Assembly: GCF_013362815.1 (NCBI RefSeq)
Contig: NZ_JABFVK010000005.1
Span: 1 to 41,857 of the forward strand
Direction of reading: 5' to 3'
From: Hamadaea sp.
Lineage (GTDB): Bacteria; Actinomycetota; Actinomycetes; Mycobacteriales; Micromonosporaceae
DNA: 41,857 nt
Each line of letters opens with the position of its first letter. The first letter of the stretch is position 1. Of the stretch, positions 16,255 through 30,294 are shown piece by piece. A program made the translations under genes and the position numbers. Below the pieces are notes generated by a model. The model ran no database searches, was not told where the DNA came from, and saw nothing but the letters and a program-made list of their open reading frames with translations.

Positions 16255-18123
16255 ATGCCCCCACGCCTTCCGCATCGTGATCCCGGCGTCCCCGACACTC
16301 GAAGTCCGTTTCGTTACCTTTGGTGGCTCGTCACCGCGCAGAAGGCTCGCGTACTGCGGGGCAGCGTCGTCGGCACGCTCTGGATGGTGGGGTTGTCCGT
16401 ACGCCCGCTGCTGATCGCCCGCGCGATCGACGACGGGTTGCGTACGGGGGACACGGAGGCGTTGCTGTTCTGGGTCGGTTGCATCGTGCTGGCCGGCATG
16501 GTGCTGGCCTGGCTGGGAATCACCCGGCATCGGACCATGACGTTCATCCGGGAGGACGCGACCGCCCGGTCGGCGCAGGTGCTTCTCCAGCACATCACGC
16601 GGGTCGGGTCCGTTCTGCCCAAGAAGATCACTTCGGGCGAAGTCGCGACCGTCGGGGGCACCGACGTCACGCAGATCTCGTGGGCGCTGACGATGACCGG
16701 GCCTGGGGTCGGCGCGGTGTTGGCGTCCGCCGTGGCCGCGGTGGTGCTCTGGTCGGTGAATCCGATGCTCGCCCTATTCGTGCTGCTGGGCGTACCAGTA
16801 GTGGCGGGCTGTGTGTGGCCGCTGCTCTCCCGGCTGCAAGGCGTGGACAGCAGCTACCGGCATGAACTGGGCATCTTGACCGCCCGAGCCGGGGACATCG
16901 TGTCCGGTCTGCGAGTGCTGGCCGGCGTCGGCGGCCGCGATCTCTTCCTGCGCCGGTACGCCGCCCGGTCGCAGACCTTGCTGGACAAGGGATACCGCGT
17001 CGGGTCGATCATGAGCTGGGTGCAGGCGCTGACCGTCGGCATCCCCGGCCTCTTCCTGGCGCTCGTGGTCTGGCTGGCGGCCCGGATGGCGGCGAACGGC
17101 GACATCAGCGTCGGCGAGCTCGTCGCGGTCTACGGCTACGTCGCGATCCTCATCGTGCCGGTGTGGTTCCTGCTCGAAGGCGGCTACATGGCCGTACGCG
17201 GCCTGGTCGGGGCGCGCCGCATGATCAATGTGCTGCGGATCGAGCCGGACGAGGTGGGCGCAACCGGTCGGGAGCCGGGTCCGGAGGTGAACTCGGCGCT
17301 GCACGATCCCGAGTCCGGACTGATCGTCCCGCCCGCCCGCATGATCGGGGTGGCCTGCGACGACCCGGCGGAGGCGATGGCCATCGCCGACCGGCTGGGC
17401 CGGTTCTCGGCCGAGCCCGCCGAGCAGACGGCGACCTGGGGCGGCCTGCCGATCACGAGCGTCGACCTGGCCGAGGTACGCGAACGGATCCTGGTCGCCG
17501 ACCACGAGTCGTACCTGTTCGCGGGCACCCTTCGCGAGGTGCTGACCGGCAGCGCCGACCCCGCCGGCCCCGAAGACGGCGGCACACCCGAGAAGCAGAT
17601 CAGGGTTCCGGGTCGAATCATGGGTCAAGATTCGACCCGGAACCCTGATCCAGCGCCAAAGACAGCGCCCAAGACAGCGCGAGAGCCAGCGCCGGAGGCG
17701 ATAGCAAAAGCGGTGTACACCGCGTCAGCGGACGACGTGGTCGAGTCCCTCCAGGCCGGCCTGGAAGAGCCGATCGACAGCCGGGGCCGCAATCTCTCGG
17801 GCGGCCAGCGCCAGCGCGTACGCCTGGCGAGAGCGCTGCTCGCCGAGCCGGAGTTGCTGATCCTCATCGACCCGACGTCGGCGGTCGACTCGCATACGGA
17901 GGCTCGGATCGCCGCCCGGTTGAGAGATCACCGCGCCGGGCGTACGACGGTCGTCTTCGCGACCTCTCCCCTGCTGCTCGCCGGAACCGACGAGGTCACC
18001 TACATCTCGCAGAAGAAGGTCATGGCCACCGGCAGGCACGAGGAACTGCTCGAGGAAGCGCCCGGATATCGGGCGCTCGTGGCGCGCGACACCGAGGACG
18101 AGACGACGGGAGCGGCGCGATGA
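16255..18123 (+). CDS. ABC exporter half-transporter A, catalytically degenerate NBD
   Basis: The product has 622 residues: a six-helix exporter membrane domain (about 20-320), then an ATPase domain. The NBD has lost its own nucleotide site. The Walker A position reads RMIGVACDDPAEAM with no GKS/T, the Q-loop Gln is Asp (VADHESYLF), the Walker B Glu is Pro (ILIDPTSAVD), and the switch His is missing (FATSPLLL). The trans-acting motifs are intact: LSGGQRQRVRLA at about 512-523 and the D-loop SAVD. It therefore supplies the signature for the partner's site. An in-frame insert of about 34 codons (17598-17699) made of a palindrome and a 12-base tandem repeat lies before the signature. The stop overlaps the next ATG. 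Confidence 0.88.
   Translation: MPPRLPHRDPGVPDTRSPFRYLWWLVTAQKARVLRGSVVGTLWMVGLSVRPLLIARAIDDGLRTGDTEALLFWVGCIVLAGMVLAWLGITRHRTMTFIREDATARSAQVLLQHITRVGSVLPKKITSGEVATVGGTDVTQISWALTMTGPGVGAVLASAVAAVVLWSVNPMLALFVLLGVPVVAGCVWPLLSRLQGVDSSYRHELGILTARAGDIVSGLRVLAGVGGRDLFLRRYAARSQTLLDKGYRVGSIMSWVQALTVGIPGLFLALVVWLAARMAANGDISVGELVAVYGYVAILIVPVWFLLEGGYMAVRGLVGARRMINVLRIEPDEVGATGREPGPEVNSALHDPESGLIVPPARMIGVACDDPAEAMAIADRLGRFSAEPAEQTATWGGLPITSVDLAEVRERILVADHESYLFAGTLREVLTGSADPAGPEDGGTPEKQIRVPGRIMGQDSTRNPDPAPKTAPKTAREPAPEAIAKAVYTASADDVVESLQAGLEEPIDSRGRNLSGGQRQRVRLARALLAEPELLILIDPTSAVDSHTEARIAARLRDHRAGRTTVVFATSPLLLAGTDEVTYISQKKVMATGRHEELLEEAPGYRALVARDTEDETTGAAR
17598..17699 (-). repeat. Composite palindrome-plus-tail repeat, copy 1 (inside ABC gene)
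   Basis: Perfect 22-bp arms at 17598-17619 and 17629-17650 (starting GATCAGGGTTCCGGG) surround a 9-base loop. They are followed by four imperfect 12-base units (AGCGCCAAAGAC type, 17652-17699). The hairpin and the adjoining tail CTTTGGCGCTG match copy 2 at 28790-28900 in the opposite orientation. Here it is translated in frame (KQIRVPGRIMGQDSTR..., then PKTAPKT...). Confidence 0.9.
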
Positions 18124-19850
18124 AGAAGGGGTTGCCGGTCGCCGATCGCAAGACGGTCTGGCGCGAGACCGCCGAGCTCACCAAGCGCGAGCGGAAGGTC
18201 GTCGTCGCCGCAGTCGCGCTGCACATCGTGGCCGCGCTCGCCGGCCTGGGCGGGCCGTACCTGCTCGGCCGAATCGTCAACGTGGTGACCGCCGGCGGTG
18301 GTACATCCGATGTGGACAAACTCGCGCTGGCGGTCGGGGCCTGCGTACTCGTTCAGGTACTCGTGTCGCGTCAGGCGCAGTACCTCGGCCACCGGTTCGG
18401 CGAACGTGCCAACGCCCGGCTCCGCGAGGACTTCGTCGCCCGGACGTTGGCGCTGCCCGTCTCGGCGGTCGAACGGGCCGGCACCGGCGATCTGGCCACT
18501 CGCAGCTCGGTCGACGTCGCCGCAGTCGGCAACACCGTGCGTACCGTGGTTCCGACGCTCCTGATCTCCGCGATCCAGCTGCTGCTGATCTTCGGCGCCG
18601 TGATCGTGCTGAATCCGCTGCTCGGGCTGGTCGCGCTGGCCGGCGTACCCACCACTGCCGCCGTGGCACGCTGGTATCTCCGGCGGGCCAGTCCGGCGTA
18701 CCTCCGAGAAGGCGAGACGGCCTCGGAGTTGACCGAAGCCTTGACCACGACGGCCGAAGGAGGCCGCACCGTCGAGGCCTTGCGGCTGGCCGAGGAGCGG
18801 GTGGCGCACGGGACCGGCAAGATCGGGCAGCAGTGGCAGGCGCGCCGCCGGACGCTCGCGTTGCGCTCGGTGTTCTTCCCGATCGTCGAGGCCGGCTACG
18901 CGCTGCCCGCCGCCGCGATGCTGCTCGCGGGCGGCTTCTTCCTGCGGCACGGGGTCAGCCTCGGCGTCGTCGTCAGCGCCACGCTCTACGTCCAGCAGGC
19001 CATCGACCCGCTCGACAAGGTGATGATCTGGCTCGAACAGGCCCAGCGCGGGCTCGCGTCGTTCGCGCGCGTGCTGGGCGTCGGCATGGTGCCACCCGAG
19101 CCCCGCGGCGAGGTTCCGGCCGTGAACCAGCGCGAGCTGGTCGTCCGCGGCGCGAGGTTCGCCTACGGTGACGGGCACGACGTGCTCCACGGCATCGATC
19201 TAGCGGTACGCCCAGGGGAGCGGTTGGCGATAGTGGGTCCGTCCGGGGCCGGCAAGTCCACATTGGCGCGCCTGCTGGCGGGGATCGACGCGCCGCGCGA
19301 AGGGGTCGTGACGCTCGGCGGGCTCGCGGTGACGGCGATCGACCCGGCCGAACGACGTCGCCGGATTGCGCTGGTGACCCAGGAACACCATGTGTTCATG
19401 GGCAGTCTGCGGGACAACCTGGCGTTCGCCGCCCCCGGTGCGACCGACGACGACATGCTCGAAGCGCTCGTCGCCGTCGGGGCCGACTGGTACGCCGATC
19501 TCCCGGACGGCTTGGACACCGAACTCGGCGACGGCGTGCGTACGCTGGGCCCGGCCGACGCACAGCAGCTGGCGTTGGCCCGGCTGGTGCTGGCCGATCC
19601 GCATACGCTGATCCTCGACGAGGCGACTGCGGCGCTCGACCCGACGACGGCGCGCCGGACCGAACGGGCGCTGGCCGCCGTCCTCGAAGGACGGACGGTG
19701 ATCGCGATCGCGCACCGGCTGAACACCGCCCACGACGCCGACCGGGTCGCGGTGCTCGAAGGGGGCCGGGTCAGCGAACTCGGGAGCCACGACGACCTCG
19801 TACGCGCTGGTGGCGCCTACGCTTCGCTCTGGCGCTCCTGGCACGGCTGA
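18120..19850 (+). CDS. ABC exporter half-transporter B, active NBD with degenerate signature
   Basis: The product has 576 residues. The membrane domain (about 20-310) is followed by an NBD with a complete cis nucleotide site: Walker A GPSGAGKST, Q-loop VTQEHHVF, Walker B LILDEATAALD with catalytic Glu, and H-loop IAHRLNTA. The signature is lost: LGPADAQQLALAR replaces LSGGQ. It pairs with the upstream protein, and the ATG overlaps its stop (ATGA at 18120-18123). The only functional composite site is this protein's Walker A/B with the partner's LSGGQ. The substrate is unknown; exporters of this heterodimer class move drugs, peptides or lipids. Confidence 0.9.
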   Translation: MKKGLPVADRKTVWRETAELTKRERKVVVAAVALHIVAALAGLGGPYLLGRIVNVVTAGGGTSDVDKLALAVGACVLVQVLVSRQAQYLGHRFGERANARLREDFVARTLALPVSAVERAGTGDLATRSSVDVAAVGNTVRTVVPTLLISAIQLLLIFGAVIVLNPLLGLVALAGVPTTAAVARWYLRRASPAYLREGETASELTEALTTTAEGGRTVEALRLAEERVAHGTGKIGQQWQARRRTLALRSVFFPIVEAGYALPAAAMLLAGGFFLRHGVSLGVVVSATLYVQQAIDPLDKVMIWLEQAQRGLASFARVLGVGMVPPEPRGEVPAVNQRELVVRGARFAYGDGHDVLHGIDLAVRPGERLAIVGPSGAGKSTLARLLAGIDAPREGVVTLGGLAVTAIDPAERRRRIALVTQEHHVFMGSLRDNLAFAAPGATDDDMLEALVAVGADWYADLPDGLDTELGDGVRTLGPADAQQLALARLVLADPHTLILDEATAALDPTTARRTERALAAVLEGRTVIAIAHRLNTAHDADRVAVLEGGRVSELGSHDDLVRAGGAYASLWRSWHG

Positions 19851-19875
19851 CCCCTCCGCACTTTACGGCTGCGGG

Positions 19876-22281
19876 TCAGGAGCGCTTGCCCAGCAGAGCC
19901 CGCGCCGCCGCCGAGATGAACCGCTCGATCTCGGAGCCGAACGGGTTCTCGTGCACCATGTAGGTCCAGGTGGAGGTCGGCCGGGGCAGGTCGGAGTCGG
20001 CCGTGGTCCACTCGGGGTCGGTCAGGTCGGCCTCGGCGAAGGTCTCCAGCGTGCTGGCCTGGATGCCGTCGATCAGCTCCTTGAACGCCGGGATCGCGAC
20101 CCGGTGGTACTCGTCGAGCGGATCCTGGCGGCCGAGCGCGCGCAGGTGGACGCCTTCGCGTACGTCGGACAGCATCGCGAGGTGGTCGGCCCAGGCCCGG
20201 TCGAGGTGGGCCAGCGCGATCAGGCGAGCGGCGTTCTCGGTCGCCTCGTCACCGATCTCGTCGGCGATCTCGTCGTAGCGTTCCTTGTCCGCTTCGAGAA
20301 CCCACCGCGCGGCGAGGTCGCTGTTGAGCAGCTCCCGGCGCTTGGCGGCCAGCAGCTGCCGCTGCCGCTCCACGAGCACGCCGTACTTCCAGGTGTTGCG
20401 GTGGATCTCGAAGTGCACGCCTTCGGAGACCTTCTGGGCGTGGCTGACGGAGTAATCGACCTCAGGCCCGGTCATCCGGCCGTCGGCGGCGACGTTGGCC
20501 GTGAACGGCTCGCCGTTGCGCACGATGAGGCTGTCCTCGGGGCTGACGAAGAACACGGAGCCACCGGGGTCGCCCTGGCGGCCGGCGCGGCCGCGGAGCT
20601 GGTCGTCGACGCGGCGGCTGTCGTGCCGGCCGGCGCCGATGACGTAAAGGCCGCCCGCCTCGACGACCTCGTCCCGGTCGCGCTCGTCCCGGCCGCCGAG
20701 CCGGATGTCGGTGCCCCGACCGGCCATCTGGGTCGACACGGTGACCCGGCCCAGCGCACCGGCCTCGGCGATGATCGCGGCCTCTTCGGCGTCGTTCTTG
20801 GCGTTCAGGACGACGCATTCGATGCCGGCTTCGCGCAACGACCGGGCGAGCCGCTCGGACTCGGCCACGTCGAGGGTGCCGATCAGGACCGGGCGGCTCT
20901 TCTCGTGCGCCTCGGCGACCTCGGCGATGATCGCGTCTTCCTTCTCCTCCGCGGTCGCGTACACCCGGTCGTCTTCGTCGACGCGGATCGACGGAGTGTT
21001 CGGCGGGATCACGGCGACCTCGAGGCGGTAGAACTCCCGCAGCTCGTCGCCGACGTTGACGGCGGTGCCGGTCATGCCGCAGACCGTCGGGTAGAGCCCG
21101 ACGAAGCCCTGCACGGTGATGGTCGCGAGGATCTCGCCCTCGGCCGTCGAGTGCACGCCCTCCTTCGCCTCGACCGCCGCCTGCAGCCCGTCCGGCCAGC
21201 GACGACGCTGGGCGACCCGGCCGCGTACGCTGTCGACGAGCTGAACCTGCCCGTCGCGGACGATGTAGTCGACATCCCGATGCACGAGTACGCGCGCATG
21301 CAGCGCCAGGTTGATCGCGGTGAGCTTGTCGAGGTTCTCCTTGGCGTACAGGTCGATGCCGTCCCACTCGCGTTCGACCAGCCGGGCGCCCGCCTCGGTC
21401 AGCTGAACGCTGCGCCCGCCCTCGACCCGGATGAAGTCCCGCGCCTTCTCCATCTTCGCCACGATCTCGGCGGCCTTCTGCGCCGGCGAGACGAGCTCCT
21501 CCACGCTGCCGGCCAGCACCAGCGGCACCCGGGCCTCGTCGATGAGGATGAAGTCGGCCTCGTCGAGGATCAGCGTCGCCAGACCGGGCATGACCTCGTC
21601 ACCCTTAGAAGTGACGAGCTGGTCACGGAGGAAGTCGAAACCGGCCTCGCTGACGGACGCATAGGTCACGTCACAGGCGTACGCCGCGGCCCGCTCGTCG
21701 TGCGTCGAGGTCTCGCCGATCGAACCGACGGTGAGGCCGAGCAGCTCGTACACCGGGCGCATCCACTCGGCGTCCCGATGGGCCAGGTAGTCGTTGACCG
21801 TCATGATCTGCACGCGCGCGCCCCGGGAGGCGTACCCGAACGCGGCGATCGCGGCGGCCAGGGTCTTGCCTTCACCGGTGGCCATCTCGACGACCGTGCC
21901 GGCCAGCATCGACATCGCGCCGAGCAGCTGCGTGTCGAACGCGCGCTCGTCCAGCGCCCGGCGAGCGGCCTCCCGGCCGAGCGCGCAGATCTCCACGAGA
22001 TCGTCGTCGTCGATCATCACCGGCTGGGCCCGCTGGAGCGAGTCCACGTATTCGGGGGACTCGTCCGGCTCGCCGTCGTCGGCCGCCTCCGACGCGCCGG
22101 TCAGCCGGTCACCCAGCTCGATGGCCCGCGCCTTCAGCTCGTCGTCGGACAGCGCCTTCAGCTCCTCCTCCAGCTCCTCGATCCGAGGCAGCAGGGCCTC
22201 GAACGGGGCGAGGCTGACGGTCGAGCCGGGGCGTTGCATGAACGTACGCAGCTTCTGGCGGAACTTCGTGGCGAGACCCAT
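19876..22281 (-). CDS. secA2: Accessory preprotein translocase ATPase SecA2
   Basis: The product has 801 residues. Motor motifs are present: Walker A ATGEGKT at 134-140, the DEAD region LILDEADFILIDEAR, MAGRGTDIRLGG and the GRAGRQGDPG motif. It lacks the C-terminal zinc-binding tail of housekeeping SecA and is shorter (about 800 rather than 900 or more residues), as for actinobacterial SecA2. An acidic insert (DDGEPDESPEYVD, then a DDDD run) follows the N-terminal helix. It would power export of a subset of proteins through SecYEG. It is monocistronic and convergent with the ABC operon. No secretion substrate is obvious nearby. Confidence 0.9.
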   Translation of the reverse strand: MGLATKFRQKLRTFMQRPGSTVSLAPFEALLPRIEELEEELKALSDDELKARAIELGDRLTGASEAADDGEPDESPEYVDSLQRAQPVMIDDDDLVEICALGREAARRALDERAFDTQLLGAMSMLAGTVVEMATGEGKTLAAAIAAFGYASRGARVQIMTVNDYLAHRDAEWMRPVYELLGLTVGSIGETSTHDERAAAYACDVTYASVSEAGFDFLRDQLVTSKGDEVMPGLATLILDEADFILIDEARVPLVLAGSVEELVSPAQKAAEIVAKMEKARDFIRVEGGRSVQLTEAGARLVEREWDGIDLYAKENLDKLTAINLALHARVLVHRDVDYIVRDGQVQLVDSVRGRVAQRRRWPDGLQAAVEAKEGVHSTAEGEILATITVQGFVGLYPTVCGMTGTAVNVGDELREFYRLEVAVIPPNTPSIRVDEDDRVYATAEEKEDAIIAEVAEAHEKSRPVLIGTLDVAESERLARSLREAGIECVVLNAKNDAEEAAIIAEAGALGRVTVSTQMAGRGTDIRLGGRDERDRDEVVEAGGLYVIGAGRHDSRRVDDQLRGRAGRQGDPGGSVFFVSPEDSLIVRNGEPFTANVAADGRMTGPEVDYSVSHAQKVSEGVHFEIHRNTWKYGVLVERQRQLLAAKRRELLNSDLAARWVLEADKERYDEIADEIGDEATENAARLIALAHLDRAWADHLAMLSDVREGVHLRALGRQDPLDEYHRVAIPAFKELIDGIQASTLETFAEADLTDPEWTTADSDLPRPTSTWTYMVHENPFGSEIERFISAAARALLGKRS

Positions 22282-22321
22282 GCCCGCAAAGGTACAAGGC
22301 GATGGGCGATCGGAGGAGACC

Positions 22322-23350
22322 CTAGCTCAACGTCTGAACAATCCGCTGGTCGGAGCCGTCCACGACGACCTCGGCGAGAGCACCGTTCACCAGGGCGAGC
22401 TCCGGGGCGACGTGACCGCAGTCGACATCGAGGATGACCGGAATGTCCAGCTCACCGAACGCGAAGCGTACGGCGTCGTCCTGGGTGAACGAACCGGCTG
22501 CCGGGGCGTCCGTACGCCCGACGAGGATGGCGTTCGCGTGATCGAACCAGCCCGCCAGCCGCAGGCTGTACAGCTCTCGCGCAGCGTCCGGGGCGGCGTG
22601 CTCGCACACCTCGACGTAGACGATCAAGCCTTCCGGCGCATGCTCCTCGGCGAACCGCCGCACATCCCCGTACGGCGTACCGGCGAGGCACGCGATGGTC
22701 TCGACGCATCCGCCGATCAGCCGTCCGGTCGCCCGGACCGGTCCCGCGCCCGGATCGAGCAACCGCCACGAGCCCGGTCGATCCAGGTTCGGGTCGACCA
22801 GGTCGGGCTGACCGATGATGTCGTAGAAGCCGGGCGCCTTGTGGTGCGTCGACGCGCGTTGTTCCAGCACCGCACCCGGTTCCGCCGACAACGCGTCCAG
22901 GTAGTGCAGGATGCCGTCCGGCCGTCGCGTCGGCGTATGCATCAGGTTCTGCCCGTGCAGCGTCGCCACCCCGGTCCGCGTCGTCACCGCCAGCAACAGG
23001 GTGGAGATGTCGGAGTACCCGACCAGCCAGGCCGGATCGGATTCGGCGATCTTGGCGTAGTCCAGCCGTTCGACCAGGTCGACGGCCAGCTCGCCGCCCC
23101 ACGGCGGCACGACCGCGCCGATACCGGGATCGATGAGCATCGCCGTCAGCTCCGCCGCCCGCCGCTCCGCCGGCGCGGACACGATCCCGGAACCGTCCAT
23201 GCACTCGCCGACGGTGACCTCATAGCCGCGCTTCGCCAGGTCCGCGAGCACGAACTCGAGCCGCGGCCGGAACCGCTCGTCCACGCCGCTGGAGGGCGAG
23301 GTCACTCCGATCCGGTCGCCGGGTCGCAGCGGCGCGGGGAACTTGATCAC
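22322..23350 (-). CDS. S66 peptidase, LD-carboxypeptidase / MccF-like
   Basis: The GTG at 23350 is chosen because AAGGAG lies just upstream; an in-frame extension to 23503 has no site and crosses the divergent promoter region. The 342-residue protein shows the S66 layout: LRPGDRIGVTSPSSG at the N-terminus, the nucleophile Ser in LVGYSDIST, a Glu in VYVEVCEH, and a His in LDVDCGHVAPE. Family members cut L,D-bonds in peptidoglycan tetrapeptides or, in the MccF branch, inactivate microcin C-type aminoacyl nucleotides. The long central loop and the VEVCE segment look closer to MccF, but I cannot decide from motifs alone. It is cytosolic, with no signal peptide. Confidence 0.85.
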   Translation of the reverse strand: MIKFPAPLRPGDRIGVTSPSSGVDERFRPRLEFVLADLAKRGYEVTVGECMDGSGIVSAPAERRAAELTAMLIDPGIGAVVPPWGGELAVDLVERLDYAKIAESDPAWLVGYSDISTLLLAVTTRTGVATLHGQNLMHTPTRRPDGILHYLDALSAEPGAVLEQRASTHHKAPGFYDIIGQPDLVDPNLDRPGSWRLLDPGAGPVRATGRLIGGCVETIACLAGTPYGDVRRFAEEHAPEGLIVYVEVCEHAAPDAARELYSLRLAGWFDHANAILVGRTDAPAAGSFTQDDAVRFAFGELDIPVILDVDCGHVAPELALVNGALAEVVVDGSDQRIVQTLS

Positions 23351-23385
23351 GACGTCTCCTTCAGGCGCAGGCTGAAATCGTACTG

Positions 23386-23447
23386 TTTCATGATCAGGGG
23401 AAACTTTGCGGTGTGATAGCAACGCAGAATTGACCCTGATCATGGAA
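23386..23447. repeat. GATCATG-type inverted repeat in divergent promoter region
   Basis: TTTCATGATCAGGG (23386-23399) and CCCTGATCATGGAA (23434-23447) pair with one mismatch around 34 bases. The repeat sits between the divergent S66 peptidase and GHL10 genes. Related GATCATG palindromes occur at 34043, 40012 and 41750. Confidence 0.6.
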
Positions 23448-23490
23448 GCCGGACGCCGGACGCGCGGGTGCGCGTCGCGGCAACTCCGGA

Positions 23491-23496
23491 TAGAGT
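23491..23496 (+). promoter_or_regulatory. -10 box for a leaderless GHL10 mRNA
   Basis: TAGAGT at 23491-23496 ends 6 bases before the ATG at 23503, and no ribosome site is present. Confidence 0.5.
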
Positions 23497-23502
23497 CCGC
23501 CA

Positions 23503-25008
23503 ATGCGCGCGAGGTGGGTGTTCGCGGCGACGGCCTTGGCTCTGCTGGCGAGCCTGGGGCTGTGGGCGGCGGCCGACGTGAGCCGGCCGGGCCGGGCGAT
23601 CGGCGAGCAGGCGGCCGGGGCGGCGGTCAACCGCAACGCCTGCGGCCGGAGCGCACCCCGGGAACTGCGCGGCATGTGGCTGACCACGGTACGCAACATC
23701 GACTGGCCGAGCCGCCCGGGATTGCCCGAGGCCACCGTGAAGGCGGAGTACCAGCAGTGGCTGGATCTCGCCGTCAAGATGAACCACAATGCGATCTTCG
23801 TCCACGTACGCCCGAGCGGGGACGCGTTCTGGCCGAGCGAGTACGCCCCGTTCTCCTATTGGCTCACCGGTCGCAAGGACAACACGAACCCGGGCTGGGA
23901 TCCGCTGAACTACGCGATCGACGAAGCGCACAAGCGGGGCATCGAGTTCCACGCCTGGTTCAACCCGTACAAGGCGAGCCAGGATCCCGTCGTCCCCGTG
24001 GGCTATCCGCATCCGGAGTGGACGGTCACGTATCCGCTGAAAGCCGAGGAGCGGCACGCGTACTTCGATCCGGGGATCCCGGAGGCGCGCAAGTGGGTCG
24101 AGGACTCCATCCTCGAATCGGTGCGCAAGTACGACCTCGACGGCGTGCACTTCGACGACTTCTTCTACCCGTACCCGAAGGCTGGGCAGGAGTTCCCCGA
24201 TCAGGCGAGCTACGCCGAGTACGGCGGCGGCAAGAACAAGAACGACTGGCGGCGCGACAACGTCAACCTCCTCGTGCGGGAGACCTACGAGCGCATCAAG
24301 CAGACCAAGCCCTGGGTACGCTTCGGGATCAGCCCGTTCGGCATCTGGCGCAACGACGACAGCGACCGCCGCGGCTCGGCCACCCAGGGACTGGAGAGTT
24401 ACGCGGCGATCTACGCCGACACGCGTACCTGGGTTGAGGAGGGCTGGCTCGACTACATCGTGCCGCAGCTCTACTGGTACATCGGCTTCAAGATCGCCGA
24501 CTACGCGGTGCTGCTGCGCTGGTGGACCGAGCTGGTCAAGGGCACCGACGTCCAGCTCTACATCGGACAGGCCGACTATCGCATCAACAACGCCGGGGTC
24601 TGGAAGGATCCCGGGGAACTGGAACGGCAGATCGCCCTCAACCAGAAGTCGGGCGTCCTCGGTAGCATCCACTTCAGCGCCAAAAGCGTGCGTACCGACA
24701 AGCTGGGCGCGGTGACGCGCTACCGCGACGCGCACAACGCGACGCCAGCGCTCATTCCCGTCTCGGCGCGACTCAAGGCCGATCCACCGCTCGCTCCCAC
24801 CCTGGTGGTACGCCGAACGGCGGAACACACCACGATCAGCTGGCGTCCCACCGAATCCGGCCCGAAGGCGTACCGGTATGCGGTGTATCGGGACGGGGTT
24901 CTCGTGGCGACCGTTCCGGCCGGAACGCGTACTTGGACCGACGGAGCGTCAACGGGAAGTTACTGCGTGACGGCGCTCGACCGGTCGTGGAACGAAAGCC
25001 GAGCCTGA
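23503..25008 (+). CDS. Exported GHL10-family glycoside hydrolase-like protein with Fn3-like C-terminus
   Basis: The product has 501 residues. It has an N-terminal signal or anchor (residues about 5-25). The main domain opens RELRGMWLTTVRNIDWPSRPG, the hallmark of the GHL10 (formerly DUF187) family of TIM-barrel hydrolase-like proteins; other landmarks are HVRPSGDAFWPSEYAP, FHAWFNPYKA, DGVHFDDFFYPYP and PQLYWYIG. The last 80 residues (from LAPTLVVRRTAEHTTISWRP) look like a fibronectin type III domain. Family members act on cell-wall or extracellular polysaccharides, but the substrate is generally unknown. It is divergent from the S66 peptidase, which suggests a shared cell-wall context. Confidence 0.87.
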   Translation: MRARWVFAATALALLASLGLWAAADVSRPGRAIGEQAAGAAVNRNACGRSAPRELRGMWLTTVRNIDWPSRPGLPEATVKAEYQQWLDLAVKMNHNAIFVHVRPSGDAFWPSEYAPFSYWLTGRKDNTNPGWDPLNYAIDEAHKRGIEFHAWFNPYKASQDPVVPVGYPHPEWTVTYPLKAEERHAYFDPGIPEARKWVEDSILESVRKYDLDGVHFDDFFYPYPKAGQEFPDQASYAEYGGGKNKNDWRRDNVNLLVRETYERIKQTKPWVRFGISPFGIWRNDDSDRRGSATQGLESYAAIYADTRTWVEEGWLDYIVPQLYWYIGFKIADYAVLLRWWTELVKGTDVQLYIGQADYRINNAGVWKDPGELERQIALNQKSGVLGSIHFSAKSVRTDKLGAVTRYRDAHNATPALIPVSARLKADPPLAPTLVVRRTAEHTTISWRPTESGPKAYRYAVYRDGVLVATVPAGTRTWTDGASTGSYCVTALDRSWNESRA

Positions 25009-25021
25009 ATACTGCGGTAAG

Positions 25022-25046
25022 CGGTGATCATCGCCTACGATCACCG
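25022..25046. promoter_or_regulatory. Palindrome with embedded -10 candidate before the conservon
   Basis: CGGTGATC (25022-25029) and GATCACCG (25039-25046) are perfect arms around 9 bases. TACGAT at 25036-25041 could be the -10 of the conservon promoter, which would make the palindrome an operator. It could equally act as a hairpin ending the GHL10 transcript. Confidence 0.45.
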
Positions 25047-25103
25047 GGTCGCTCCCCCCAAGCGGCTCCCCTCAGTATTCCAAGCCCGCCCAAGAGGTCA
25101 TCT

Positions 25104-27437
25104 GTGAACAGACCCCTTCTCCTCCGGCGTACCTGGACGATCCGGTCGCGGGTTCTGCTGCTGTTGCTGGCGCCGTTGCTGCCGCTCGTCGGCATGTGGG
25201 CGTTCAGCACGTCGCTGTCGGTGTCGGCCGCCGGCAACCTGCTCGACGCGCAGACCAACGCCGAGAACGGAGCACTGCCCGCCGGTGCGGTCGCGTACTA
25301 CTTGGAACAGGAACGGAAACAATCGGCTCAACTGCTGGGCGGCGACAGCAGTGTGGCCGGTGCGCTGAAGGATCAACGGGCCCGCACCGACCAGCAGGTC
25401 GCCAAGCTGCGGCAGCTGGCCGAAGGCGACGATCTGCAGAGCTCGGCCTCCCCGGCGGCACTACAGCGCATCGGCGAGATGCTGACCGCGTTGGACTCCC
25501 TGCCGACCGCCCGCGCCTCGGTGGACACCGCTCGGTACTCGCGGCTCCAGGCGGTCAACGCGTACACGGCGATCATCGAGAAGGCGTTCGCGGTGTTCGC
25601 CACCGCGATCGAAGTCGACGATCACACCTTGGCCCGGGCGTCGACGACGACCGCCACGATCAACGAGGCCCGTGACCTGTTCTCGCTGGAGGACGCGCTG
25701 ATCAGCGGGGTACTGGCGGCGGGCGGCAGCTACGCGCCCGGCGAACGCGGTCTGATCGTGCAGGCGATCGGCGCACAACGCCAGCTCTACGAGGTCGGTA
25801 CGCGCGCACTGCTGCCGCAGGACGCCGAGACCTACCAGCAGATCGTCACGAGTGAGGCGTACGCCCGCATCCGCGCGGCCGAAGACAAGATCACCGAGTC
25901 CACTGCCGGCAAGCTGCCTGGCATCGATCGGAAGCAGTGGGAGTCCGACGTCACGGCGGTGAACCTGGAACTGTCGCATCTGGAGGATCAGATCGCCGGG
26001 CGGGCCATCGAGGCGGCCACCCCGGCGGCGACCCGGATCATCCTGCGGCTGCTCATCGCCGGTCTGCTCGGTCTGCTGCTGATCATCGGCCTGGTGTTCC
26101 TGTCGATCCGGATCGCCCGGTCGATCATCCGGCGCATTCACGAGCTGCGCGCGGAGGCGCTCGACGTCGCCGAACGAAAGCTGCCCGACGTCGTCCGCCG
26201 ATTGCGCCGGGGCGACGAGGTCGACGTGGACGCCGAGGCTCCCCCGCTCACTCCGGCCGACGACGAACTGGGCCAACTCGGCGGCGCGTTCGCCGAGATG
26301 CAGCGTACGGCGATCGCGGCGGCGGTTCAGGAGGCGCATCTGCGGGCCGGTCTCAACCAGGTCTTCCTGAACCTGGGCCGGCGCAGCCAGGTGCTGGTCC
26401 ACCGGCAGTTGTCGCTGCTCGACGCGATGGAACGCCGGGTCACCGATCCGCAGGATCTCGAGGAGCTCTACCGGATCGACCACCTCGGCACCCGGCTGCG
26501 CCGTCACTCGGAAGACCTGGTCATCCTGGCGGGCGCGGTGCCGGGCCGCGGCTGGCGCAACCCCGTCCCGCTGCACGACGTGCTTCGCTCGGCCGTGTCC
26601 GAAGTAGAGGAATACACCCGGATCACTCTGATCCCGCTGCCCGAGCTCGCGCTCGTCGGCCGGGCCGTCAGCGACGTCGTGCACCTGATCGCCGAGCTGC
26701 TGGAGAACGCCACGGCGTTCTCGCCGCGCGACACCCACGTGCAGCTGTCCGGGCAGCTGGTCCCGAACGGGTTCGCCGTGGAGATCGAGGACCGCGGCGT
26801 CGGCCTGCCCCAGGAGGCGATCGACGAGGCCAACGAGCGGCTCGCCGACCCGCCGGACTTCGATCCCGCGCACAGCTCGCGGCTCGGCCTGTTCGTGGTG
26901 GCGCGGCTCGCCGTGCGGCACGGCATCAAGGTCACCCTCCGGCCGTCGCCCTATGGCGGCGTCACGGCGGTCGCGCTGCTGCCGCGCGAGCTCGTGGTCG
27001 ACGAACGGTCCGCGCAAGGCGAACTCACGGCGGCCCGCCCACCCGTCGCGGTGGCCGCTCTTCCGTCAGGAAGCGGTGATACGCACAACGGAGCAGGCGT
27101 CGTCGCCACGTTGCCAGCGCCCGCCCTCGTCGACGAGGCCACCGCGGAACAGCCCATGATCGTGGTGGAACAGCCGATGATCGCCGCGCCTCAACCGGTG
27201 AGCGGGCCGCATCAGCTCAGTCCCGAAGGACTCCCGATGCGGCAGCGTCAAGCAAACCTCGCGCCACAGTTGCGCGTACAAAATGCTGAAGAAGAACGAC
27301 CCGCGCGGACCTCGCGGCCGGCTGAAGCGAGCCGGACGATGCTGTCCTCCCTGCAAGCCGGCACGAACCGCGGCCGGGCCGAGGCCGCGCAGCAGGCGGA
27401 CGTGTCTTCGTTGGATGGTTCGGAGGAGCAGGAATGA
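25104..27437 (+). CDS. cvnA: Conservon sensor kinase-like protein (CvnA type)
   Basis: The product has 777 residues. The GTG at 25104 follows AGAGG and directly precedes the first membrane segment; a longer frame from 24933 would run back into the GHL10 gene. TM1 is at about 10-40. An all-helical extracellular domain of about 270 residues resembles the nitrate/nitrite-sensing (NIT) type, and TM2 (LLIAGLLGLLLIIGLVFLSIRI) leads into a HAMP-like segment. A helical region with DHLGTRLRRHSED stands where the phosphoacceptor His would be, then a histidine-kinase ATPase fold follows: LLENATAFSPRD (N box) and VEIEDRGVGLP (G1). The C-terminal 200 residues are disordered. It heads a four-gene operon with overlaps. 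CvnA proteins sense membrane signals and work with CvnB-D. Confidence 0.9.
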   Translation: MNRPLLLRRTWTIRSRVLLLLLAPLLPLVGMWAFSTSLSVSAAGNLLDAQTNAENGALPAGAVAYYLEQERKQSAQLLGGDSSVAGALKDQRARTDQQVAKLRQLAEGDDLQSSASPAALQRIGEMLTALDSLPTARASVDTARYSRLQAVNAYTAIIEKAFAVFATAIEVDDHTLARASTTTATINEARDLFSLEDALISGVLAAGGSYAPGERGLIVQAIGAQRQLYEVGTRALLPQDAETYQQIVTSEAYARIRAAEDKITESTAGKLPGIDRKQWESDVTAVNLELSHLEDQIAGRAIEAATPAATRIILRLLIAGLLGLLLIIGLVFLSIRIARSIIRRIHELRAEALDVAERKLPDVVRRLRRGDEVDVDAEAPPLTPADDELGQLGGAFAEMQRTAIAAAVQEAHLRAGLNQVFLNLGRRSQVLVHRQLSLLDAMERRVTDPQDLEELYRIDHLGTRLRRHSEDLVILAGAVPGRGWRNPVPLHDVLRSAVSEVEEYTRITLIPLPELALVGRAVSDVVHLIAELLENATAFSPRDTHVQLSGQLVPNGFAVEIEDRGVGLPQEAIDEANERLADPPDFDPAHSSRLGLFVVARLAVRHGIKVTLRPSPYGGVTAVALLPRELVVDERSAQGELTAARPPVAVAALPSGSGDTHNGAGVVATLPAPALVDEATAEQPMIVVEQPMIAAPQPVSGPHQLSPEGLPMRQRQANLAPQLRVQNAEEERPARTSRPAEASRTMLSSLQAGTNRGRAEAAQQADVSSLDGSEEQE

Positions 27438-27838
27438 GCAACCCCGCCCACGGGCTGGACTGGCTGATCGACGACTTCGTGGCCCGGGTGCCCGCGGCCC
27501 AGCAGGCCGTGGTCTTGTCGGTGGACGGCCTGCTGATGGGCGCGTCGCGCAACCTGGCGCAGGCCGAGGCCGAGCACATGGCGGCGGTCGCGGCCGGTTT
27601 CGCGAGCCTGTCGCGCAGTGCGGGACGGCACTTCCAGCGCGGACCGGTACGCCAGACCATCATCGAGATGGAGACCGCCTTCCTGCTCGTGACCTCGGCC
27701 GGGCAGGGTTCCTGCCTCGCGGTGCTCGCCGCGGCCGACTCCGACATCGGCATGGTCGCCTACGAGATGGCGATGCTGGTCGAGCGGATCGGCCACAACC
27801 TGGCGACGCAGCCCCGAAGCACGGCGAATGCGCGCTGA
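27434..27838 (+). CDS. cvnB: Roadblock/LC7 protein (CvnB type)
   Basis: The product is a 134-residue Roadblock/LC7-domain protein: GLDWLIDDFVARVPAAQQAVVLSVDGLLMG, then a beta-alpha-beta pattern ending GMVAYEMAMLVERIG. The ATG overlaps the kinase-like gene's stop (ATGA, 27434-27437). Roadblock proteins bind small GTPases of the CvnD/MglA type and act as dimeric scaffolds or GTPase-activating partners, so this is the expected second member of a conservon. Confidence 0.92.
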   Translation: MSNPAHGLDWLIDDFVARVPAAQQAVVLSVDGLLMGASRNLAQAEAEHMAAVAAGFASLSRSAGRHFQRGPVRQTIIEMETAFLLVTSAGQGSCLAVLAAADSDIGMVAYEMAMLVERIGHNLATQPRSTANAR

Positions 27839-28217
27839 CGGCGAGCGCCCCGAGTCGCACGACTGGCTGGACGACGACGCCGGCCCGCTCGTGCGATCCT
27901 TCGCGCTCACCGGCGGCCGGGCCAAACCCGGTGCGGCGACGTTCGACCTGCTCAGCCACGTGACGGCCGCGCCGTTCGCGGTGCAGCGCAGCACCATCCA
28001 CCTGCAGCCGGAGCACCGGGCCATCCTCGCCCGCGCTCGCGATCCGGTCTCGGTCGCCGAACTCGCCTCGCACCTCGGCTACGGCCTGGGCGTGGTCCGC
28101 GTGCTCCTGGCCGACCTACTGGAGGCGGGCGCGATCACCAAGGTCGACGCCCCCTCCGACCACCTTCCCGACGACGACGTACTCCAGGCGGTGATCCATG
28201 GCCTCCGAACCAGCTGA
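27828..28217 (+). CDS. cvnC: DUF742 protein (CvnC type)
   Basis: The product is a 129-residue DUF742 protein. It has the usual N-terminal VRSFALTGGRAKPG segment and a winged-helix-like C-terminus (PEHRAILARARDPVSVAELASHL ... GVVRVLLADLLEAGAI). It overlaps cvnB by 11 bases. Its fixed place between the roadblock and GTPase genes identifies it. The role in other conservons is as part of the membrane complex with CvnA, B and D. Confidence 0.92.
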   Translation: MRADGERPESHDWLDDDAGPLVRSFALTGGRAKPGAATFDLLSHVTAAPFAVQRSTIHLQPEHRAILARARDPVSVAELASHLGYGLGVVRVLLADLLEAGAITKVDAPSDHLPDDDVLQAVIHGLRTS

Positions 28218-28785
28218 CGGCCGGGCGCGGCCGGTGCCGACGGCGATCAAGATCCTGATCGCGGGCGGCTTCGGCGTAGGCAAGACCACGCTCGTGGGTG
28301 CGGTGAGCGAGATCCTGCCACTGCATACCGAGGAAGTTCTGACGTCGGAGAGCATGGTCTCCGACGATCTGTCCGGAGTGGAGGGGAAGACCACCACGAC
28401 GGTCACGATGGACTTCGGCCGGATCACGTTCGGCGACAACGTCGTGCTCTACCTCTTCGGCACCCCCGGCCAGGACCGGTTCTGGTTCCTGTGGGACGAG
28501 CTGGCCCTCGGCGCGCTCGGCGCGGTGGTGCTCGCCGACACCCGGCGGCTGGCCGACTGCTTCCCGTCGATCGACTACTTCGAACGGCGCGAGACCCCGT
28601 TCATCGTGGCGGTGAACTGCTTCTACGGCGAGCAGCCGTTCGAGGCCGACGCCGTACGCAACGCGCTCGCGCTGGACCCGAACGTTCCGCTGGTCATGTG
28701 CGACGTACGCGATCGCAAGTCCGGCCGGGAAGTACTCATCGCCCTGATCGAGCACGTGCGATCGCTCCGGCTGGCCCGCCTCTGA
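28198..28785 (+). CDS. cvnD: Conservon GTPase (CvnD type)
   Basis: The product is a 195-residue Ras-like ATP/GTP-binding protein. The P-loop is AGGFGVGKTT, switch I is in the region around LTSESMVSDDLSGVEGK, and the switch II segment is LFGTPGQDRFWF. The base-recognition position reads VAVNCFYG rather than NKxD, as is common in CvnD proteins. It overlaps cvnC by 20 bases and is the last gene of the operon; the composite hairpin repeat 60 bases downstream probably also ends the transcript. It cycles nucleotide state with CvnB as partner. Confidence 0.92.
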   Translation: MASEPADGRARPVPTAIKILIAGGFGVGKTTLVGAVSEILPLHTEEVLTSESMVSDDLSGVEGKTTTTVTMDFGRITFGDNVVLYLFGTPGQDRFWFLWDELALGALGAVVLADTRRLADCFPSIDYFERRETPFIVAVNCFYGEQPFEADAVRNALALDPNVPLVMCDVRDRKSGREVLIALIEHVRSLRLARL

Positions 28786-28789
28786 CCTC

Positions 28790-28900
28790 TTGGCGCCTCC
28801 GCGCTTTGGCGCCTCCGCGCTTTGGCGCCTCCGCGCTTTGGCGCTGGATCAGGGTTCTGGGTCGAATCTTGGGTCGTGATTCGACCCAGAACCCTGATCC
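28790..28900 (+). repeat. Composite palindrome-plus-tail repeat, copy 2 (after conservon)
   Basis: Three 16-base tandem units (TTGGCGCCTCCGCGCT) at 28790-28837 plus half a unit to 28845 lead into a perfect 23-bp inverted repeat. Its arms are at 28846-28868 and 28878-28900, starting GGATCAGGGTTCTGGG, with a 9-base loop. The hairpin and the adjoining CTTTGGCGCTG match copy 1 in the ABC gene, and one arm position is changed on both sides (C-G to T-A). It probably also works as the conservon terminator. Confidence 0.9.
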
Positions 28901-28989: not shown

Positions 28990-30294
28990 ATGGCTGGGTT
29001 CCGAGCGATGATCATGGTCGCCGTACTGGGTGGCGCGACAGCGTTGGCGGGTTGCACCGCCACGAAACACGACGCCCAGCCGACGCCGAGCGCCGAAGTA
29101 CCCCAGGAGAACCTGGCGCTCAGCGTGAGCCCCGCCGACCGGGCGGCCGGCGTACCGGTGAGCGCGGAGATCGGCATCAAACTCGGCGCGGGCATGGTCG
29201 ACGGAGTCGACGTACGCGATGCCGCCGGGCAGCAGATCGCCGGCACGTTACGACCGGACGCATCGGCCTGGGTGCCCGCGACTCCGCTCAAGTACGCCCA
29301 GCGCTACACCGCCACGGTGACCGCCGTCGGCACGCGTACGCACCACGAGTCCAAGTCGGTCGTGTTCACCACGATGGCGCAGCCGTCCCAACTGGAGAGC
29401 GTCGGCTTCTACCTGTTCGACGGCAAGGAGTACGGCATCGGCATGCCGATTCCGATCGAGTTCATGCGGGACGTCCCGGTGAGCCTGCGGGCGGCGGTGC
29501 AGAAGCGGTTCTTCGTCACCAGCGACCCGCCGCAGCCCGGCGCATGGCACTGGTTCAGCCCGACCCAGGTGCAGTACCGCCCGGCGACGTACTGGCAGCC
29601 CGGCACGAAGCTGACCGTCCGGCTGGGCCTCAAGGGACAGGCGCTCGGCGGCGGCTACTACGGCGACGAGGACAAGATCGCCCGCGTACGCATCTCGAAC
29701 GACCGGGTCGAGGTCAAGGTGACCAACCACCCGAAGCAGCTGCAGGTGATCAAGAACGGCCAAGTGATCAAGACGATGCCGGTCAGCCTGGGCAAGCCCA
29801 GCACCCCGTCGTCCAGCGGGCACATGGTCGTCATGGAGCAGGCGTACACGTATCGGTTCGACACCCGCGGCGAGCCGAACGGCGGCTACGTCGTGGACGT
29901 CAACTACGCCCAGCGCCTCACCTGGGGCGGCGAGTTCATCCACTCCGCACCGTGGAGCGTCGGCGACCAGGGGTACACCAACGTCTCGCACGGCTGTGTG
30001 AACGTCGGGCCGGGCAACGCCTCTTACCTGTTCACCGTGATGAAGGTCGGTACGCCGGTCACCATCAGCGGCACCGAGGTGAAACTCGCCCCGGGCAACG
30101 GCTGGACGGTGTGGGACATGGACTGGCCGACCTTCCTCAAGGGCAGCGCCGTCCCGGTCACCTCCGAGGTCGCCGACGCGGTCGCGTACGAGCCGTATCC
30201 GAAGCCGAAGCCGACCGCCACGGTCGCACCGAGCCCCGCTCCGGGATCCGTCGGAAACGCCCAGATGGGGACACCTACTCCCTCGGCCAGCTGA
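28990..30294 (+). CDS. L,D-transpeptidase lipoprotein (YkuD), paralogue 1
   Basis: The product has 434 residues. The ATG at 28990 follows GGGGG and gives a lipoprotein signal with lipobox LAGC. Two Ig-like domains (about 45-265) precede a YkuD catalytic domain (from about 240). Its active-site motif is SHGCVNVGPG with Cys336, and the upstream His is in FIHSAPWSVG. A Pro-rich tail ends the protein. This is the Ldt architecture of mycobacterial LdtMt2/LppS, which makes 3-3 cross-links in peptidoglycan at the outer face of the membrane. It is followed by a paralogue on the same strand. Confidence 0.93.
   Translation: MAGFRAMIMVAVLGGATALAGCTATKHDAQPTPSAEVPQENLALSVSPADRAAGVPVSAEIGIKLGAGMVDGVDVRDAAGQQIAGTLRPDASAWVPATPLKYAQRYTATVTAVGTRTHHESKSVVFTTMAQPSQLESVGFYLFDGKEYGIGMPIPIEFMRDVPVSLRAAVQKRFFVTSDPPQPGAWHWFSPTQVQYRPATYWQPGTKLTVRLGLKGQALGGGYYGDEDKIARVRISNDRVEVKVTNHPKQLQVIKNGQVIKTMPVSLGKPSTPSSSGHMVVMEQAYTYRFDTRGEPNGGYVVDVNYAQRLTWGGEFIHSAPWSVGDQGYTNVSHGCVNVGPGNASYLFTVMKVGTPVTISGTEVKLAPGNGWTVWDMDWPTFLKGSAVPVTSEVADAVAYEPYPKPKPTATVAPSPAPGSVGNAQMGTPTPSAS

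Follow-up and report, generated by a model that had tools for sequence, protein, structure and literature searches.

In the window, a stretch of 41,857 nucleotides from one contig of the Hamadaea sp. genome G000 (7.45 Mb in 124 contigs), we studied two copies of a palindrome of about 65 bp, which we call F1. One of them is read in frame inside a gene for an ATP-binding cassette (ABC) exporter subunit, and the other lies in an intergenic gap. F1 is one of several palindrome families of this genus, and at orthologous sites of two species a palindrome of another family, mostly F2, can stand in its place, both between genes and within coding sequence. We consider it somewhat probable that F1 and F2 palindromes are copied and exchanged by ectopic copying and act at gene ends as transcript-end structures. 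The host G000 was compared with its congeners G001, G002, and G003, all four belonging to one genus of the Micromonosporaceae.

Palindrome families change at orthologous sites

We compared 152 orthologous nondivergent gaps of G000 and G003 using relaxed palindrome detection; several automatic assignments of "none" in an earlier gap comparison were, by eye, diverged F2 palindromes. Of the 13 gaps occupied by F1 in G000, 4 also harbored F1 in G003, 5 had F2, 2 had a member of another family, 1 had an ordinary hairpin, and 1 was without a palindrome. Conversely, the 8 gaps with F2 in G000 held F2 in 6 cases, F1 in 1, and none in 1, and the 4 gaps with other families in G000 held F1 once and nothing three times. 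Among the gaps lacking F1 in G003, another family was present in 7/9 of those with F1 in G000 versus 4/125 of those free of family palindromes in G000 (Fisher P = 9e-8). The gap of window copy 2 is itself occupied by an F2 palindrome in G003.

The same was seen within genes. A UvrD/PDDEXK gene carries, at the same aligned position, F1 in G000 and a diverged F2 in G003, both in frame, and at the C terminus of thiE, F1 and F2 again share an aligned position in frame, with the reverse species arrangement to the helicase. Since F1 versus F2, F9, or F3-like palindromes fill the same orthologous gap, a site can outlast its occupant, and because swaps occur within coding regions, a terminator role alone cannot explain them.

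We scored 19 pairs of orthologous F1 copies: differences amount to 2.2% at 40 conserved positions and 33% at 13 variable ones, the two classes having been defined on the same family in which they were scored. The aligned flanks of orthologous F1 pairs are 81 to 94% identical, two of them 99 to 100%. Strict selection on sequence would explain the low divergence at conserved positions, and so would recurrent replacement out of a genomic pool; family switching favors replacement. At L151/L086 and L153/L098, one-sided flanks are 99 to 100% identical between G000 and G002, most others being 80 to 94% identical; this may be due to recent exchange between species or to contamination of a genome bin.

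F1 is dispersed in three genomes and has a diverged version in the fourth

F1 was counted in 41 genomes using a 27-base core with at most two mismatches and the reversed pattern as a control. The core matched 169 times in the host, as opposed to 0 for the control, in line with the dispersed palindromic family that the preliminary description of this DNA had proposed from the two window copies. It matched 191 times in G002, 104 times in G003, and not at all in G001, and 7/37 genomes of other genera had one or two matches. The reversed pattern was absent from 40/41 genomes and matched twice in one that also has two core matches. Copies beyond the mismatch limit would escape this count; none with 6 to 8 mismatches was found. 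A BLAST search of the 41 genomes with the 61-bp hairpin gave matches in the four congeneric genomes only, weak in G001, and none in the 37 genomes of other genera. At least 43 exact arm matches were found in named genome records, and all of the matches listed lie in one Micromonosporaceae bin, Hamadaea sp. Bin8.36.

G001 contains 107 copies of a diverged version with another mid-stem (CACCCGAATC...GATTCGGGTG), which was absent from the seven other genomes searched. The G001 copies seen retain the base GGATCAGGG and the apex GAATCwTGG and carry a second GATC outside the first. F1 therefore seems to descend from a genus-wide ancestor, and a mid-stem that differs across all copies of one genome looks like concerted change or re-amplification.

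The consensus derived from 149 distinct copies reads GCGCTG-GATCAGGGTTCnnGGTCGAATCTTG-nnn followed by its complement, about 65 bp in all. It has an outer extension of six bases per side (GCGCTG next to GATC), each position being 80 to 90% conserved, and three variable bases at its center, and it contains GATC and GAATC/GATTC. The two window copies differ by a C-G versus a T-A pair, with both arms changed, from which it had been concluded that pairing is maintained. This is partly true for the family: the dinucleotide at positions 11 and 12 agrees between the arms in 60/162 copies, with 40.5 expected if the arms were independent, whereas the mismatched TC/CG combination is the commonest form in G002 (26/43, in either orientation). 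Positions 8/44 covary moderately (136 paired versus 120.8 expected). Covariation nevertheless says little, because most F1 stem positions hardly vary.

Further palindrome families and a dispersed loop insert

A search for long inverted repeats in the fetched stretches revealed about 10 families in the genus, those other than F1 and F2 being groupings by eye; shuffled controls gave 0 to 1 per genome sample. F1 included, GATC stands near the stem base in 149/191 hairpins of G000 and 55/73 of G003. The exact F2 pattern (GATCASGGWTRYGCA...) has 73 copies in G000, 41 in G002, and 94 in G003, with none in 38 other genomes and none in the controls. F1 and F2 have a common base, GATCASGG. None of these families was recognized by eye among 12 hairpins in 240 kb of four other genera. 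A different long palindrome (GAACGAGGGTTCTGGGGGTGTCAAGACA...) occurs twice in G010, from another genus of the family (L242:11844 and L244:15616), indicating that other genera may have their own families.

One palindrome, at G003 L211:19570, joins an F1 left arm to an F2-like right arm and is the sole clear chimera seen. The 218 palindromes inspected also include 13 pairs with one unclassified arm, degenerate by eye, and 1 with both arms unclassified.

At three sites whose flanks are not homologous, F1 contains almost the same 47-nt loop; a trace of copying is the best interpretation. A search of Rfam for a known RNA family in this insert gave, at the gathering score, only an unrelated tRNA (three loci). 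We also noticed a second dispersed element of about 43 nt, GCCGGGGAGCCTCTyGGGCGAGCCGCCAGGAGTGCAGTCAG (L120:256, L173:17345, L066:2124, and others), with 15 copies in G000, 5 in G002, 20 in G003, and none in G001, G004, and G006. It sits in genes, in gaps, and three times in an F1 loop with near-identical junctions.

The two window copies and their tails

The relevant features of the window are as follows.

16255..18123, + strand: ABC exporter subunit containing F1 copy 1; ABC_membrane and ABC_tran matches; 622 aa
17598-17619 and 17629-17650, no strand: arms of F1 copy 1, loop 17620-17628; in-frame translation QIRVPGRIMGQDSTRNPDP
17651..17699, no strand: tail of copy 1; GCGC containing, locus specific, outside the repeated unit; length varies among orthologues
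28234..28785, + strand: gene upstream of copy 2; start uncertain, open reading frame opens at 28198
28790..28845, no strand: tandem units beside copy 2; 16-bp unit TTGGCGCCTCCGCGCT, 3.2 copies
28846-28868 and 28878-28900, no strand: arms of F1 copy 2 (23 bp), loop 28869-28877 (9 bases)
29008..30294, + strand: gene downstream of copy 2

Recomputing the arms returned the perfect inverted repeats of 22 to 23 bp with a 9-base loop that had been described at both sites. In copy 1 the 22-bp arms are perfect and pairing stops there, without a further pair, and copy 2 begins 60 nt past the stop of the upstream gene. On base composition alone, about 3e-7 perfect 22-bp repeats with loops of 0 to 9 bases are expected in the window. 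The predicted RNA fold of positions 17590 to 17700 has an energy of -58.2 kcal/mol (z = -9.0). As also described, the match extends beyond the palindrome, the outer CAGCGCCAAAG/CTTTGGCGCTG match being present, and GGCGC-rich repeats flank each hairpin on one side only, on opposite sides in the two copies.

From these tails, the preliminary description had concluded that hairpin and tail form one composite element. We surveyed tandem repeats of period 8 or more within 120-bp flanks and found them beside 43/155 F1 and 18/43 F2 copies and in 53/400 random 3' gaps, with differing units. The single dispersed palindromic family stands, but the tail is not part of it: we reject a composite element, since the tails are local tandem arrays with differing units and the copied unit is the palindrome of about 65 bp. 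At G003 L171:9619-9804, tandem copies of the F1 outer arm itself (GCGCTGGATCACGGTTCGCTTATC units) adjoin the palindrome, which suggests local duplication of an element's edge as a way for tails to lengthen.

Copy 1 is read in frame, as part of a 34-codon insert, between VADHESYLF and LSGGQ, as had been noted; we take these to be the Q-loop region and the ABC signature, respectively. The region from 16255 to 19850 encodes paired ABC exporter subunits. The first shows no visible Walker A motif and has ILIDPTSAVD, and the second has GPSGAGKST and LILDEATAALD. The first subunit thus seems degenerate at the nucleotide site, presumably lacking the catalytic E in ILIDPTSAVD.

F1 copies inside genes

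Genes were called with a custom codon-usage gene finder. F1 was called inside genes in 7/83 copies in G000, 3/46 in G002 (one locus held twice), and 3/26 in G003, that is, in 13/155 copies with one locus counted twice. Ten of the 13 were examined for reading frame: eight use one frame, two the other open frame, and none the frame closed by TGA. The remaining three calls are the ABC orthologues, with the frame of the window copy. The eight copies encode the peptide Q/W-IR-x-x-G-R-I...QDST-x-NPD-(P/L). We do not claim a reading-frame preference (8 versus 2), as these two frames are mostly open anyway. The presence of the palindrome in a coding frame, noted earlier for the ABC gene, extends to further genes.

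A Pfam scan of eight proteins with an insert matched seven, six of them above the curated cutoff; a DUF2157 match fell below it, and one protein had no match. In the exporter, the insert falls within the ABC_tran match; in the helicase, it separates the N- and C-terminal UvrD domains; and in Lnt, it stands between the N-terminal and CN_hydrolase domains. Another stands 18 residues before a MatE match, and others lie ahead of a subtilase domain or after the thiamine phosphate synthase domain.

The ABC insert is common to G000, G002, and G003, whose proteins are 90 to 92% identical, and its tail varies in length among them. Neither the G001 orthologue nor the best homologues from four other genera (G004, G006, G010, and G013) have it. 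Hence, homologues without the insert exist, which the preliminary description had proposed to look for; it had also considered that F1 might be an old protein segment with only two copies and shared with distant genera; instead, copies by far exceed two and the other genera are free of the insert. On the simplest reading of the sequences, the insert would have entered before G000, G002, and G003 split. That the ABC copy would be ancestral to three species and that other palindrome families can occupy the same sites are two points that the preliminary description missed.

F1 is placed at gene 3' ends

The median distance from the F1 core to the 3' ends of flanking genes is 29 nt (192 ends, three genomes). 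F1 occupies 39/150 convergent, 44/403 tandem, and 2/226 divergent gaps in G000 and 17/74, 14/208, and 0/127, respectively, in G003. Because most G000 stretches and 20/42 G003 stretches were picked around F1 sites, densities in the sample are biased and totals inflated, the contrast between gap types being unaffected. Gaps with F1 or F2 (n = 129) are depleted in other short hairpins, with 5 seen versus 20.1 expected when stratified by gap type and length (z = -4.2). The depletion was also found at other thresholds (10 versus 25.3, 5 versus 17.0, and 3 versus 12.2). A is enriched at positions 3 and 4 after the F1 stem.

Possible explanations for palindrome exchange

If the reading that we favor is correct, F1 copies would spread by copying, and F1 and F2, with their common base GATCASGG, would most likely exchange by ectopic copying. 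Such an exchange would resemble gene conversion, one palindrome replacing the other once breakage or template switching has occurred at an extruded hairpin, and the same copying would maintain the homogeneity of each family in a given genome. The hairpin may serve at gene ends as a bidirectional transcript-end structure that replaces an ordinary terminator; inside genes, the palindrome may be a tolerated passenger peptide. Loss of a palindrome-cutting nuclease as the cause of palindrome survival is not supported, SbcD being present in all four congeners.

Several observations weigh against this reading. Between G000 and G002 (51 gaps), F1 was kept in 10/11 cases and F2 was present in 1 (P = 0.053), too few for a test; owing to the overlap of L093 with L146 in G002, some gaps of this genome may count twice. 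In the pairs compared, F3, F6, and F7 sites of one species lack a palindrome in the other, which looks like plain gain or loss. Orthologous F1 copies are slightly closer to each other than random ones (5.2 versus 6.5 differences, P = 0.019), indicating that replacement is not complete. Chimeras of F1 and F2 arms are rarer than frequent internal recombination would give, and with 1 clear case in 218 palindromes, we reject frequent arm-by-arm recombination. The sequence of the 47-nt loop insert is itself dispersed and could have entered three F1 loops independently. As to gene ends, the depletion of hairpins could also mean that the elements insert into terminators and destroy them, and at L176/L197, F1 accompanies an ordinary hairpin in the G003 gap, where G000 has only that hairpin. 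No U-tract follows the stem (T makes up 10.5% of the following 12 nt), so that a canonical intrinsic terminator is not supported. Finally, no target duplication was readable at unoccupied sites, where the flanks are too diverged, and PF01797 (Y1/RAYT) was found in 0/11 genomes, the control being positive in 5/14.

The last two results also count against site-directed transposition, in which nonautonomous palindromes would be moved in trans by an enzyme targeting terminator-like hairpins or GATC, and switching would mean that one element is lost and another independently enters the same hot spot. This would account for the dispersed, near-identical copies, the sites filled in one species only, and the 47-nt-loop F1 copies at nonorthologous sites. 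It would also suit the frequent GATC near the stem base, the second GATC in G001 copies, and the G003 F1 at L176, whose orthologous G000 gap has neither F1 nor F2. For F1 and F2 to stand at a single aligned position of the helicase, however, targeting would need to be very exact, and we regard transposition as rather unlikely. About as doubtful, if marginally less so, is a hairpin-exchange system in which fixed 3'-end and in-protein sites retain a palindrome over the time scale of species while dedicated or hijacked machinery swaps the families there, perhaps via the GATC base. If true, palindromes would be exchanged as cassettes, and peptides would be rewritten in frame along with them.

Two further alternatives appear far less plausible. 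Ordinary, nonmobile 3'-end hairpins (I-shaped terminators or mRNA 3' stabilizers) selected for structure only would account for the post-stop position, the convergent enrichment, the rarity in divergent gaps, and the anticorrelation with other hairpins, and 3' ends that have stem-loops but lack a U-tract are reported for Streptomyces clavuligerus (PMC8269248). Yet the base-by-base identity of 162 copies in three species is stricter than structure needs, and the in-frame copies and the common 47-nt loop at unrelated sites further weaken this explanation, which we hold to be improbable. The conserved bases in both arms, next to a variable three-base center and dinucleotide 11-12, and the GATC and GAATC/GATTC of the consensus would fit palindromes kept for duplex recognition as binding or modification sites (GATC, GANTC; compare the Caulobacter CIR), with a location that avoids promoters. 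This is the least probable explanation of all, as families with unrelated stems occupy one site in different species.

Comparison with known systems

REP, BIME, and REPIN sequences are dispersed palindromes, found mainly outside genes and often 3' of them, and REPs form paired hairpins with a conserved tetranucleotide. F1 resembles them in being dispersed, chiefly extragenic, and often 3' of genes but is one long near-perfect palindrome instead of paired REP hairpins, and a REPIN/RAYT system is rejected on the absence of PF01797 noted above. Miniature inverted-repeat transposable elements are likewise short inverted repeats that are dispersed, lack a gene, and are fused in frame on occasion (PMC10969869); here, in contrast, neither a parent insertion sequence nor a transposase nor a target duplication was found. 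Visual inspection sorted 33 isolated F1 half-arm matches in the fetched loci into degenerate hairpins, copies of the loop insert, a single chimera, one match at a contig edge, and chance matches; no transposon ends were seen among them.

The CIRs of Caulobacter share with our families that they comprise several types of intergenic inverted repeats containing a methylase-type motif; they consist of two arms plus a linker over about 110 bp and were not found inside genes (PMC2229807), whereas F1 measures about 65 bp and also lies inside genes. The I-shaped or U-lacking terminators of GC-rich bacteria are similar in their stable stem without a U-tract at gene ends but, in the excerpts of PMC8269248, are described by structure and not as repeat families with a conserved sequence such as F1. 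Searches of an open-access library listed nothing relevant on such repeats in Micromonosporaceae, on REPINs in actinobacteria, or on Hamadaea.

The closest precedent, switching included, is the Rickettsia palindromic elements (RPEs), compared here by description: multifamily palindromes fused in frame to Rickettsia genes (PMC3767692, PMC10969869, and PMC2229807). Both systems have several palindrome families in one genus and in-frame insertions in protein genes. RPEs are 100 to 150 bp long, with nearly half of the first set in genes, whereas F1 is about 65 bp and lies mostly 3' of stops. Orthologous Rickettsia genes may hold different RPE groups (RPE-4/6/7), nearby but at different positions (PMC3767692), whereas in Hamadaea different families occupy one and the same gap or aligned position. 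Because the host genus belongs to the Micromonosporaceae and the comparison is by description, we classify the Hamadaea palindromes as RPE-like and not as RPEs. Three points appear new here: the host is an actinomycete, the palindromes are placed at gene ends where other hairpins are few, and the exchange concerns one and the same gap or aligned position. It has long been asked how such small palindromic repeats spread when they lack genes to do so. This genus has one single-contig genome, hundreds of copies, several families, and family changes at orthologous sites, so that insertion, conversion, and functional substitution could be separated by comparing close strains. Its palindromes are also a high-GC actinomycete parallel to the coding palindromes of Rickettsia, with swaps that rewrite a stretch of protein.

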